IMG/VR virus record: IMGVR_UViG_3300034092_002044 | Coordinates: 1 to 22,008 of that record | Length of the DNA stretch: 22,008 nt | Reading direction: 5' to 3' (one strand) | DNA from: a virus | Shown here: positions 6,678 to 9,028 of the stretch, piece by piece | How positions within the stretch are numbered: position 1 is the first letter of the stretch | How the letters are laid out: each line of letters starts with the position of its first letter | Notes under the pieces: generated by a model | The model's input: the letters and a program-made list of their open reading frames with translations, nothing else | What the model was told of the DNA's origin: nothing | Database searches by the model: none | Program-made: the position numbers and the translations under genes

Positions 6678-6926
6678 GTGGTCGGGCCTCATTTAGTAGA
6701 TGAATTATTTATTGAACTTGGCATAGACCCAGCCGAAGGTCGGAATCGATATGTTCTTGAGCAATTCAGAAAATATGAAGAAAAAAGAATTGCGGAATGG
6801 TACACCAAAGGTTTTAATACTGGTGCGCAAGAGCAAAGAAAAAATGCTGAGCCACAAAGATTGGATGAGTTGGAGTTCATAAGATTTAAATTCGATTTTA
6901 GTTATATCATAAACCATAAAGGATGA
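6678..6926 (+). CDS. Small charged helical protein, unknown
   Basis: The product has 82 residues and its best start is GTG at 6678, since no ATG is available in frame. It contains LGIDPAEGRNRYVLEQFRKYEEKRIAEWYTKGFNTG, a charged amphipathic helix. The stop overlaps the exonuclease start (ATGA style, GGATGA). I do not recognise the family. The coupling suggests a small partner of the nuclease, but that is inference. Confidence 0.5.
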   Translation: MVGPHLVDELFIELGIDPAEGRNRYVLEQFRKYEEKRIAEWYTKGFNTGAQEQRKNAEPQRLDELEFIRFKFDFSYIINHKG

Positions 6927-7666
6927 ATATTTCACAATCGCTCATGAACCAGGTGCTTGAGAAGCCTTGCCCGTATGCTATCAAGCTTGAATGGATTGAC
7001 AAGAAAAGGTCGGAGCCGTCTGACCTTATGAAAAGGGGTCATTATTTTGAGTATTGCGTCATCGGAGACTCTTCATCAGAAGCCCCTCAGCTGGAGAAAC
7101 TGAAGAACGGAGGAAAGTCTCAGGCAGAGAAGGACATCGATGATCTTGTGGTTATTGCCAAGAAAACCTTGGAGGGTTTTGGGTTGGAGTTGGGAAATGC
7201 CCAAACCCAGCTTCGCCTTGAGCATGATGGCAAGAGCGGGTTGATTGACTTGGTGGCCAATGACATTGAGGATAAGAAGCGGAAAGCCATCTACGACATT
7301 AAGTATACTGAAACCAAGTACGACGATCGGTGGAATGGTTGGGCTGATATAGAGACTCGTCCGACCGCGAAGAGGCAAGCAAGGCATTACATACATCTGT
7401 GGAAGGAGATTAATGGCGAATGGTTGCCGTACTACTTTGTCATTTTTGGGAAATCAGGATGGTGCCGGATTATTAAGTGCATCGTGACTGCCGAAAGTAT
7501 GGCTATTCATTATCGCGAGATTGAGGTTGTTTCTGATATGCTGGCAAGGTGGAAAGGCGAAGGATGGAAACCCGAACCGAGTTATGAAAAGTGCAGGGAT
7601 TGCCGCGTGGCTCAGTTCTGTGAGCATTACCAGGTTCTGCCTGATATAGAGCAAGCTTCGATATAA
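6923..7666 (+). CDS. PD-(D/E)XK exonuclease of the Cas4/RecB type with putative Fe-S cluster
   Basis: The product has 247 residues. Nuclease motifs in order are RGHYFE (38-43), GLIDLV (106-111, Asp109), YDIKYTETK (124-132, Asp125-x-Lys127) and the Q...HY helix (Gln152, His155-Tyr156). Four cysteines have the Cas4/AddB arrangement: Cys16 near the N-terminus and C224-x2-C227-x5-C233 at the C-terminus, which would hold a [4Fe-4S] cluster. Such enzymes resect DNA ends to give ssDNA for an annealing protein, here the candidate encoded at 5909. No cas1/cas2 is near, so a CRISPR role is unlikely. It ends the early operon before a long RNA-rich region. Confidence 0.8.
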   Translation: MNISQSLMNQVLEKPCPYAIKLEWIDKKRSEPSDLMKRGHYFEYCVIGDSSSEAPQLEKLKNGGKSQAEKDIDDLVVIAKKTLEGFGLELGNAQTQLRLEHDGKSGLIDLVANDIEDKKRKAIYDIKYTETKYDDRWNGWADIETRPTAKRQARHYIHLWKEINGEWLPYYFVIFGKSGWCRIIKCIVTAESMAIHYREIEVVSDMLARWKGEGWKPEPSYEKCRDCRVAQFCEHYQVLPDIEQASI

Positions 7667-7727
7667 TAGTCGATAATTTTAAAATATCGGTTTGAAAGTC
7701 GGTTTTTTTCATAAGCAGTTGGTTTTA

Positions 7728-7749
7728 CCGGCCCGTTTCCACGGGCTGG
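7728..7749 (+). other. Stable hairpin directly upstream of tRNA-like RNA 1
   Basis: A 9-bp stem with one G-U pair (7728-7736 with 7741-7749) and a TTCC loop ends 6 nt before the acceptor-like strand at 7756. It has no strong T-run, so it may be a processing or weak termination element rather than a full terminator. Confidence 0.5.
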
Positions 7750-7755
7750 GTTTAT

Positions 7756-7896
7756 GGTCGGGTGGCGAAAATGGGTAACGCTAATAAGGTAAGATTGAAA
7801 CCGGTTTAGGCAACTGTGTCCCGTTACATGATGCGTTATGTTAAGTGTCATTTGCTTAATTCAATCACGCAGGTTCGATTCCTGCCCCGACTACCA
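7756..7896 (+). ncRNA. tRNA-like structured RNA 1 (oversized, encoded CCA, non-canonical centre)
   Basis: The ends look like a tRNA: a 7-bp acceptor (7756-7762 with 7886-7892, one G-U), TG, a D-arm-like GCG...CGC with GGG in the loop (7765-7781), a perfect T-arm (GCAGG-TTCGATT-CCTGC, 7869-7885), discriminator A and an encoded CCA (7894-7896). The centre is about 87 nt instead of about 45. It holds a 7-bp helix 7793-7799/7860-7866 (GATTGAA/TTCAATC) and a hairpin 7841-7846/7854-7859 whose 7-nt loop GTCATTT would present CAT after a T, as in a Met anticodon. TAACGC (7776-7781) can also pair with GCGTTA (7833-7838), a pseudoknot. It may be a tRNA with an insertion, or a tRNA mimic. No ORF is supported here. 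Confidence 0.5.
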
Positions 7897-7997
7897 GAAC
7901 CGGATGGCGTAAGCCCCAATGAATAAGGCAGCAATGTAACGCCCCTGCGGATCGCGGGGAGATGTCGGTGCGAATCCGACTCCGGTTCCTCTTTTTT
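7897..7997 (+). ncRNA. tRNA-like structured RNA 2 (tandem, followed by T-run)
   Basis: It begins at the base after the CCA of RNA 1. An 8-bp terminal helix pairs 7897-7904 (GAACCGGA) with 7981-7988 (TCCGGTTC). A T-arm-like hairpin 7964-7980 has stem GTCGG/CCGAC and loop TGCGAAT, where the usual T at position 55 is G. Inside, GGCGT (7906-7910) pairs with ACGCC (7939-7943) around a GCC/GGC hairpin, and a GC-rich arm covers 7944-7957. No 7-nt anticodon loop with U33 can be placed, so it is not a standard tRNA. CTC and six T (7992-7997) follow, so the terminal helix may double as a terminator. No CCA is encoded. Confidence 0.45.
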
Positions 7998-8021
7998 GTG
8001 GTTTCAGAGGTAAGCAATGAC

Positions 8022-8047
8022 GCGCTGCGTTTCTACGCGGTGCTTTT
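8022..8047 (+). terminator. Intrinsic terminator after the tRNA-like RNAs
   Basis: A 9-bp stem (8022-8030 with 8035-8043, two G-U pairs) with loop TTCT is followed by TTTT. It would end the transcript carrying the tRNA-like RNAs. Confidence 0.6.
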
Positions 8048-8062
8048 ATAACCTTTCGGTGG

Positions 8063-8074
8063 CAATTTTGCCGA
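8063..8074. repeat. Near-palindrome GGCAATTTTGCC shared with the 12.9-kb intergenic region
   Basis: This 12-nt near-palindrome recurs as GGCAAATTTTGCC at 12923-12935 and, inverted, as GCAAAATTGCC at about 12973-12983. All copies are intergenic, which suggests a protein-binding site. Confidence 0.35.
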
Positions 8075-8115
8075 ATTTGCTTAAATTATACCCAATATGG
8101 ATCATTTTGAGCGTG

Positions 8116-8145
8116 TTTGTGTAGGCATATTGTATATAGTTTTTG
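8116..8145 (+). promoter_or_regulatory. Weak promoter candidate before the gene at 8189
   Basis: TTTG at 8116-8119 is followed after 18 nt by AGTTTTTG (8138-8145), one or two mismatches from TAnnTTTG. It lies 43 nt before the ATG at 8189. Confidence 0.3.
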
Positions 8146-8188
8146 TACTTTTATGTATAATTGGCTATATGCTGATAAACCAAATACC

Positions 8189-8431
8189 ATGACACACAAA
8201 GAATTGATTGAGGAATTTCGGGTAATGGACACTCTTACCGACCTTGAGTTGGAGAAAATTGTGTCCATCCATAGGAAAATCTTCCTTTACCAATGGCACA
8301 ATTCCAAGCTATACACAACGCTCGTGGGAGCCAAAGAAGCCCTAAGATTGGCCGAGATAGACATTAGCTTGGCTGAAGAGTATGTGAAAGATTTGGAAAA
8401 AGAAAAAGAAGATTCTGAGGATTTGTTTTAG
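8189..8431 (+). CDS. Small helical protein, unknown
   Basis: The product has 80 residues. I start it at ATG 8189 (MTHKELIEEF); a longer frame upstream would begin before the promoter candidate and reads like non-coding sequence. It is helical throughout, with a coiled-coil-like acidic end (LRLAEIDISLAEEYVKDLEKEKEDSEDLF). No motif is recognised. It is flanked by RNA-rich intergenic regions on both sides, so it is likely transcribed alone. Confidence 0.55.
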   Translation: MTHKELIEEFRVMDTLTDLELEKIVSIHRKIFLYQWHNSKLYTTLVGAKEALRLAEIDISLAEEYVKDLEKEKEDSEDLF

Positions 8432-8435
8432 TTGT

Positions 8436-8443
8436 TATATTTG
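8436..8443 (+). promoter_or_regulatory. -7 promoter element (TATATTTG) for a small RNA
   Basis: An exact TAnnTTTG match, placing a transcription start near 8449, just ahead of the structured RNA 8449-8547. No convincing -33 element was seen. Confidence 0.5.
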
Positions 8444-8448
8444 CAAAC

Positions 8449-8547
8449 GATTCCTTCATGTGTGAGACGGACGCAGGGAGGAGTTTAGACCCAACAACAG
8501 AAGGCATCGGGCCGTCTCCCCAGCCTTCTGATTGTATGGGTTTTTTT
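8449..8547 (+). ncRNA. Candidate small RNA with loop-paired pseudoknot and own terminator
   Basis: About 100 nt between the -7 box at 8436 and a T-run. A long hairpin pairs 8489-8505 with 8523-8541: 17 bp with two single bulged A on the 3' side. It is extended by GGG (8509-8511) with CCC (8519-8521), closing a 7-nt loop CCGTCTC (8512-8518). That loop is perfectly complementary to GAGACGG at 8464-8470 upstream, giving an H-type pseudoknot. Seven T (8541-8547) follow, so the hairpin is also an intrinsic terminator. A competing open frame (8458-8718) crosses these stems and reads on through the terminator. The pairing is visible; transcription and function are inferred. Confidence 0.55.
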
Positions 8548-8760
8548 ATTGATTCTCCCCAATGGCACAAAGAATCAATGTCCAAACGCCGGTATGTAGG
8601 CTGCAATAGTGGGGGCAATGACTTCTCGGTGTCAACCCCCGACCAGGATCATCCAACGAAGCAGCCGCACCCTTTTTGGGATAAGGAGGTAAAGCGTTAT
8701 AGGGCACAGTTCAGCTAAATGCCTATGCTGAACAGGCTCAGGAGGATATCCTGGGATATA
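8548..8760 (+). ncRNA. Further structured region (hairpins and a compact pseudoknot)
   Basis: Several perfect stems follow one another: 8548-8556/8571-8579 (9 bp, 14-nt loop); GGCTGC 8599-8604 with GCAGCC 8661-8666, enclosing GGGGG 8611-8615/CCCCC 8636-8640 and an inner TGAC/GTCA; GTTCAGC 8709-8715 with GCTGAAC 8727-8733, whose loop GCCT (8721-8724) can pair with AGGC (8734-8737) right after the stem, a classical H-type pseudoknot; and CAGGA/TCCTG at 8739-8753. This could be a separate RNA, the leader of the gene at 8789, or a continuation of the small RNA if termination at 8547 is partial. No known RNA family was recognised. Confidence 0.45.
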
Positions 8761-8788
8761 GACCGAGTATGCACTAAACTCAAATAAC

Positions 8789-9028
8789 ATGAAAACACAA
8801 GCAAACGACCCAGCATTTTCAAGGCCAGCTTTCCATCACGAACATACGGGAACACTACATGATGCCCAAGATGGATTGACAAAGCGAGAATACTTTGCAG
8901 CAATGGCAATGCAGGCTATAGTATCAAACTTAAATTCGCATCGTTTATTTGGGGTTGACAATATGTTCGACATTGCCAAGGGTGCAGTTAATATGGCAGA
9001 TGCTTTAATCGAAGAATTAAATAAATGA
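8789..9028 (+). CDS. Small phage protein of the 'GLTKREYFA' type
   Basis: The product has 79 residues. The central GLTKREYFAAMAMQAIVSN followed by a helix ending in ADALIEELNK is a pattern common in small early proteins of many phages and prophages; no function is established for it that I know of. An A-rich leader (AACTCAAATAAC) precedes the ATG. It overlaps the next gene by 4 nt, so it opens the replication operon. Confidence 0.7.
   Translation: MKTQANDPAFSRPAFHHEHTGTLHDAQDGLTKREYFAAMAMQAIVSNLNSHRLFGVDNMFDIAKGAVNMADALIEELNK

Follow-up and report, generated by a model that had tools for sequence, protein, structure and literature searches.

Analysis of a complete virus record of 22,008 bases (hereafter, the window) identified, at positions 7756-7896, a tRNA-like RNA, denoted R1. 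It is a member of an extensive and apparently undescribed viral RNA family, in which a nearly constant tRNA shell is combined with a hypervariable middle. Judging from the sequences, the characteristic traits are the shell itself, the lack of an anticodon arm, restriction to viruses, constancy of the shell combined with variability of the middle, and conservation of structure in those middles that have homologues. In our best reading, to which we assign about an even chance, R1 is a non-decoding phage RNA in which a tRNA shell carries an exchangeable, structured payload, the latter being the active part.

The genes of the window include those for a DnaB-like helicase, a DNA methyltransferase, a terminase, a portal protein and a Mu-F-like protein. 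The closest matches of the terminase are from phages of Bacteroides and Phocaeicola, at about 35% identity. Close relatives of the gene located 5' of R1 (6923-7666) were found in a few viral contigs only, and these relatives are themselves accompanied by oversized tRNA-like RNAs.

The tRNA shell of R1

The following features of R1 were delineated:

7756-7896, + strand: R1, tRNA-shell RNA of 141 nt, including the encoded CCA (RF00005 match, acceptor/T-arm scanner)
7756-7762, + strand: 5' strand of the acceptor stem, GGTCGGG (family consensus AGTCAGG)
7765-7781, + strand: D-arm, a GCG/CGC stem around a GG-bearing loop, with T8 at 7763
7782-7792, + strand: single-stranded linker TAATAAGGTAA, where an anticodon arm would start (sequence, MFE fold)
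7793-7799, + strand: 5' strand of the payload helix, GATTGAA (MFE fold)
7800-7859, + strand: variable payload, consisting of a 6-nt bulge, an inner helix and an apical hairpin (7826-7841) (MFE fold)
7860-7866, + strand: 3' strand of the payload helix, TTCAATC (MFE fold)
7869-7885, + strand: T-arm, GCAGG-TTCGATT-CCTGC
7886-7896, + strand: 3' end, comprising the acceptor strand CCCGACT, A73 and the encoded CCA

As read from the sequence, the acceptor strands (7756-7762/7886-7892) pair at all seven positions, with one G.U among the pairs; the D-stem is formed by 7765-7767 and 7779-7781; A73 is nucleotide 7893 and CCA occupies 7894-7896; and the nucleotides that form the tRNA elbow (T8, G18G19 and TTC of the T-loop) are all present. 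The RF00005 covariance model aligned both halves of R1, at 7756-7893, with 33.6 bits against a gathering score of 29 (E 6e-5, computed on a 1.2-kb stretch), leaving unaligned 72 nt at the expected place of the anticodon arm; the faster Rfam gathering scan over the whole window missed R1. A scanner for combined acceptors and T-arms produced just two matches on both strands of the window, R1 (score 19.5) and the adjoining 7898-7987 (17.5). In 60 shuffled windows, a score of at least 19.5 was never reached, and one of at least 17.5 was reached in a single window. In the MFE fold of R1 (-41.3 kcal/mol), the acceptor, the T-stem and the 7-bp payload helix all form, along with a D-stem; given the z of -1.73, the fold energy by itself is modest evidence.

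Sequence, MFE fold and Rfam score bear out the tRNA-like parts, discriminator and CCA that the initial annotation placed here, and its 7-bp helix is likewise present in both the sequence and the fold. The CAT-bearing 7-nt loop that it also described is absent from the MFE fold, where the apical hairpin, ACATGA-TGCG-TTATGT (7826-7841), has a tetraloop. In the same fold, TTTAGGCA (7806-7813) is paired immediately inside the 7-bp helix, beyond the 6-nt bulge (7800-7805). No homologue of this middle was detected among the 183 RNAs compared, so its predicted fold depends on a single sequence, and an exact search with 28 nt of the 3' end of R1 returned no match.

A family of viral RNAs with a near-constant shell

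The near-constant shell, AGTCAGG-TGGCGGAATTGGTAGACGC ... ACAGGTTCGAATCCTGTCCTGACT-AC, was detected in at least 120 IMG/VR viral stretches using one bait that consisted of the T-arm and the 3' strand of the acceptor. The matches listed yielded, from 123 loci, 169 distinct RNAs with lengths of 68-190 nt. Because pairing of the acceptor and the T-arm served as search criteria, the perfection of these stems is partly selected, and the constancy of the 3' shell is a matter of bait construction. The 5' side entered the search through acceptor pairing only, and therefore its conservation is not built in: TG directly follows the acceptor in 150 of the 169 RNAs, and a canonical D-loop start is present in 122. 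The discriminator is A in 153 of the 169. In an alignment of the shell, the D-arm columns were unreliable. Of 80 loci retrieved through a neighboring DUF3310-like protein, without an RNA bait, 9 contained a total of 17 tRNA-like genes, 12 of these with AGTCAGG-type acceptors.

R1 agrees with the family consensus at 15 of 19 positions of the 5' shell and 22 of 26 of the 3' shell, resembling AGTCAGGTGGCG..GG.A ... ACAGGTTCGANTCCTGTCCTGACTA, and its acceptor pair 5:68 is altered on both strands, from A-U to G-C, as read from the sequence. The exact bait pattern is not present in R1, which is assigned to the family through shell similarity and phage kinship; its location, in a virus record, is that of the family. 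In cellular DNA, the bait had 8 matches among 84,980 genomes of bacteria and archaea, in each case on a MAG contig, five of which are from Bacteroidota; a search for the 5' shell in four of these Bacteroidota MAGs found one copy in each. The full shell was not found in named phages (INPHARED).

Lack of an anticodon arm

ARAGORN called neither a tRNA nor a tmRNA in R1, and no tRNA when introns of up to 250 nt were allowed. Together with the 72 nt that RF00005 leaves unaligned, this upholds the initial view that R1 does not fold as a normal tRNA; the covariance-model check proposed with that view, when run with Rfam, found the tRNA halves and no ordinary anticodon arm. An Rfam search down to E 5 over 7600-8800 matched tRNA alone, which, along with the ARAGORN result, speaks against the tmRNA-like RNA that the initial annotation had offered as one option.

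The same holds across the family. ARAGORN assigned a normal anticodon to only 29 of the 169 members, compared with 167 of 179 other small tRNAs from the same loci, and the 29 anticodons are scattered over 11 amino acids, some of them unusual in bacteria. When middles were shuffled within intact shells, 23-27 received an anticodon, and with introns allowed, the calls numbered 114 of 169 for natural middles and 108-116 for shuffled ones. Because natural and shuffled counts are similar, the middles hold no anticodon-arm signal above that of random sequence. In some members (L248, L176 and L229), reading of the sequences revealed a triloop or tetraloop hairpin alone in place of the anticodon arm. 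A minority of RNAs with the AGTCAGG shell (L159, L190) resemble ordinary tRNA-Lys(UUU).

These results bear on another option of the initial annotation, a tRNA with an insertion, that is, a decoding tRNA with a small intron or insert in its middle that is removed after transcription. Intron-bearing oversized tRNAs are known in general, and the alignment of both tRNA halves by Rfam would fit. We nevertheless consider this explanation exceedingly improbable, given the negative intron-tolerant search in R1, family calls at the level of shuffled middles, the lack of a group I intron match in Rfam to E 5, and the ordinary-length members with a mere triloop or tetraloop. Thus, of the initial interpretation, the tRNA-like, non-normal fold stands and the intron and tmRNA options are not supported; R1 is seen instead as one of a large viral family, a view beyond the reach of one sequence.

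Two other observations concern tRNA calls. At 7869-7953 of L056 (the same RNA as at 2342 of L060), ARAGORN calls a tRNA-Ser(AGA) in an RNA that looks like a succession of acceptor, D-arm, linker, single hairpin and T-arm and is probably non-decoding despite this call. In Tenacibaculum phage pT24 (L268; LC168164, 192032-192477), two tRNA-Undet genes lie in a cluster with tRNA-Sup; ARAGORN identifies this pair as tRNA-Ile(TAT).

Conserved structure and exchange of the middles

Only 47 of 183 RNAs (a set that includes R1 and other relatives) share a homologous middle with another RNA of this set; they form 19 clusters, and no motif common to all middles was found. AATAAG was considered as a shared motif and dropped because our own search pattern had selected for it; an encoded C74 without C75 was rejected as a distinguishing feature of the family, since ordinary tRNAs in these phages have the same tail.

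Across the 19 clusters, the predicted pairs show 19 compensatory double changes and are broken in 7 cases, and 7 further changes affect one side only and preserve pairing, compared with means of 0.75 compensatory changes and 44.5 broken pairs in a control with slid partners; the structures were chosen by RNAalifold, a bias in their favor, and the contrast is large. Comparative sequence evidence of this kind indicates that the middles are not junk and that their structure is kept where homologues exist. The gain in stability of the middles over shuffled sequences is only modest (mean z -0.62).

Middles and shells appear in different combinations. The same middle is present in L003_3 and L150 with different acceptors, and L003_3 shares a D-loop insert with L168. 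L053 and L055 have identical acceptors and unlike middles at the same locus, 5' of the same DUF3310-like gene.

In six members (L264, L165, L187, L180, L247 and L168), a second T-arm-like sequence is located within the middle or the D-loop, which suggests recombination between tRNA-like genes. Several middles with such apparent extra T-arms, and the recombination of phage tRNA arrays, would fit R1 being a decayed tRNA gene, whether a pseudogene whose middle is drifting or the scar left by recombination in tRNA arrays. We regard decay as highly improbable: the acceptor and T-arm are intact in 169 RNAs (pairing being partly a search criterion), the middles show compensatory changes, promoter motifs are positioned (see below), and the RNAs are widespread and yet confined to viruses.

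Oversized tRNA-like RNAs with other acceptors were observed as well. A subfamily comprising L008 (L046), L012 and L059 consists of 129-nt RNAs with the conserved middle AATAAGTAGGGA...TCCCGAAA, in which AATCA/TGATT versus AATGG/CCATT suggests a covarying pseudoknot. A large viral contig, G006 (IMGVR_UViG_3300033984_000473, 232,931 bases), with 53 tRNA model matches, carries several such RNAs, one of about 203 nt.

Clues to expression and searches for targets

Within 150 nt upstream of 166 members, the TAnnTTTG box, which is the Bacteroidota -7 consensus, occurs 34 times against 12.35 expected, and 16 of the 34 boxes start 10-19 nt before the RNA. No such box was found in the 300 nt upstream of R1. 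The nucleotide at -1 is U in 132 of 166 members (124 of 179 among ordinary tRNAs of the same loci), in line with the preference of RNase P for U at this position; R1 also has U at -1. R1 is thus putatively transcribed and processed, in the manner of a tRNA, to a CCA-ended RNA, the U at -1 and the promoter motifs of relatives being indirect support.

An antisense role of the middles, directed at rRNA or at phage DNA in the vicinity, was considered and rejected, as the complementarity of the middles to nearby phage DNA and to E. coli rRNA showed no excess over shuffled sequences, and thus no target was found for them. E. coli rRNA served as a proxy because the searched Flavobacterium genomes gave no rRNA matches.

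Proposed function

Under our best reading, host RNase P would cut the 5' end of R1 and 3' maturation would make the other end. The acceptor stem, D-arm, T-arm and CCA end would recruit the host tRNA machinery, and the elbow would stabilize the RNA and keep it protected. A separately folding payload, in R1 an extended helix that is bulged and ends in an apical hairpin, would replace the anticodon arm and do the work, binding a component of the host, of a defense system or of a competitor. The shell would be common to a large viral family, with payloads exchanged among phages. An active role of the payload, as opposed to the shell, and the existence of such a partner are suggested less strongly than are transcription and processing.

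The main rival turns these roles around: the shell would be active as a decoy, a possibility that the initial annotation had also listed. It would be bound or processed by, and thereby titrate, an enzyme directed at tRNA ends or at the elbow, such as a synthetase, a toxin modifying the CCA end or a tRNA nuclease of a defense system, while the middle would drift and need only avoid translation. The constant shell with varied middles that share no motif is compatible with this scenario, as are the several copies per phage (for example, seven pattern matches in L150, among the matches listed) and the members in which a triloop or tetraloop hairpin alone occupies the place of the anticodon arm. 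Dominance of one acceptor sequence also fits a decoy, and it is left unexplained by a stability scaffold alone, which counts against our best reading. What makes the decoy unlikely, in our assessment, is that compensatory changes keep the pairs of homologous middles, where drift predicts otherwise, and that one middle is present in two shells, which drift would not lead one to expect; furthermore, middles reaching about 140 nt would be an expensive feature of a decoy, and oversized RNAs with other acceptors exist too.

Alternatively, R1 could be aminoacylated without taking part in decoding, through anticodon-independent charging of the LeuRS or SerRS type, with the amino acid used off the ribosome. 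Charging with leucine and serine is independent of the anticodon, the D-arm GTGGCGAAA.TGG is similar to that of class II (leucine-type) tRNAs, and A73 and an encoded CCA are present. This alternative is improbable, considering that a long variable arm is inconsistent across members, that the diversity of the middles is left unexplained, and that no enzyme using amino acids was found adjoining R1 within a limited protein set.

Extending the payload reading beyond R1, phages of Bacteroidota might possess a rapidly evolving, modular repertoire of structured RNAs built on one constant tRNA chassis, with payloads swapped to yield bespoke inhibitors in conflicts with hosts, defense systems and other phages; we consider this generalization possible and rather doubtful. 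If the RNAs are made, they would represent a natural counterpart of the engineered tRNA scaffold, that is, a shell providing maturation and stability to many unrelated structured RNAs. The hosts of these phages are, to our knowledge, thought to lack Hfq. The family also offers concrete, testable RNAs for the study of phage-host conflict. Because standard tRNA callers miss most members or produce spurious tRNA calls with odd anticodons, such RNAs have probably been overlooked or mislabeled in phage genomes.

Relationship to known RNAs

R1 shares with tRNA (RF00005) the 7-bp acceptor, the D-arm, a T-loop of the TTCRANY type, the elbow nucleotides and CCA, and differs in lacking an anticodon arm with a 5-bp stem and 7-nt loop, in place of which there is a 72-nt unaligned middle. 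Similarly to R1, tmRNA has tRNA-like ends with another domain replacing the anticodon arm; R1, however, is far smaller, has a D-stem, and no tag reading frame was identified in it. Natural non-canonical tRNAs, namely, tRNA-Sec-like, allo-tRNA and tRNA-Pyl, depart from the canonical cloverleaf (PMC7609411). Judging from the scope of that review and as generally understood, these keep the anticodon arm and act in translation, unlike R1.

Among phage RNAs, species 1 RNA of T4 (rnaC, NC_000866, 70908-71046) is a 139-nt 'small, stable RNA' encoded beside tRNA genes and, like R1, is oversized. It has a canonical T-arm, CCGGG-TTCGAAT-CCCGG, with a neighboring hairpin in an oversized, non-tRNA fold; the 7-bp match for an acceptor, CGGAACG/CGTTTCG, falls within the annotated RNA and does not form in its MFE fold, and the assignment is ambiguous. 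Only the T-arm is common to the two RNAs, whereas sequence and host differ. The family described here could provide a way into unexplained stable RNAs of phages, such as T4 species 1. In the crAss-like phage cr4_1 (NC_055893, near 67,863), we noticed an unannotated 79-nt tRNA-like RNA with a diverged shell, comprising the acceptor AGTAAGT..CCTTACT (6 of 7 pairs), a T-arm, and a hairpin with a 9-nt loop where the anticodon loop would be. It is the sole likely relative noticed in a named phage genome.

We found no description of these tRNA-shell RNAs in the open-access PMC literature searched. The family is judged categorically new because we know of no other in which a constant tRNA shell is combined with exchangeable structured payloads; on a stricter view, it could be considered a variant of tRNA-like RNA.

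A second tRNA-like element and flanking hairpins

R1 is flanked by the following elements:

7728-7749, + strand: hairpin with a TTTCCA loop, ending 6 nt 5' of R1
7897-7989, + strand: R2, second tRNA-like element, beginning on the base right after the CCA of R1 (fold, scanner)
7990-7997, + strand: T-rich run 3' of R2 (sequence)

R2 is closed by an 8-bp stem, GAACCGGA/TCCGGTTC, and contains a T-arm, GTCGG-TGCGAAT-CCGAC (7964-7980), and a strong G+C-rich arm, CCCCTGCG/CGCGGGG, without an anticodon arm. As R2 is directly followed by TCTTTTTT, it may double as a terminator, and its closing stem with the T-rich run looks like an intrinsic terminator; a terminator scan with a loop limit of 8 nt did not call this combination. 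In the relatives L003 and L005, a long-stem element containing a T-arm sequence also comes after the tRNA-like RNA, and in L003 it is followed by a run of eight T. An 8-nt pairing between R1 and R2 (CGTTACAT/ATGTAACG) was rejected, being at chance level on a rough estimate.

The hairpin with a TTTC[TC]A loop recurs, at 7728-7749 and 8022-8043 of the window, at 10309-10330 of L055 and at 8292-8313 of L003. The gap between the hairpin and the tRNA-shell RNA is 6 nt in L055, as in the window, and 4 nt in L003; further, similar hairpins are found on the same strand at other places in the relatives. Downstream, at approximately 8440-8790, the window contains an apparently non-coding stretch that may be another structured RNA. 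A hairpin in this stretch, GGGGGCAATGACTTCTCGGTGTCAACCCCC, matches GGGCAATGACTTCGATGTGTCAACCC of the relatives L002 and L005, where it lies downstream of a nuclease-like gene.
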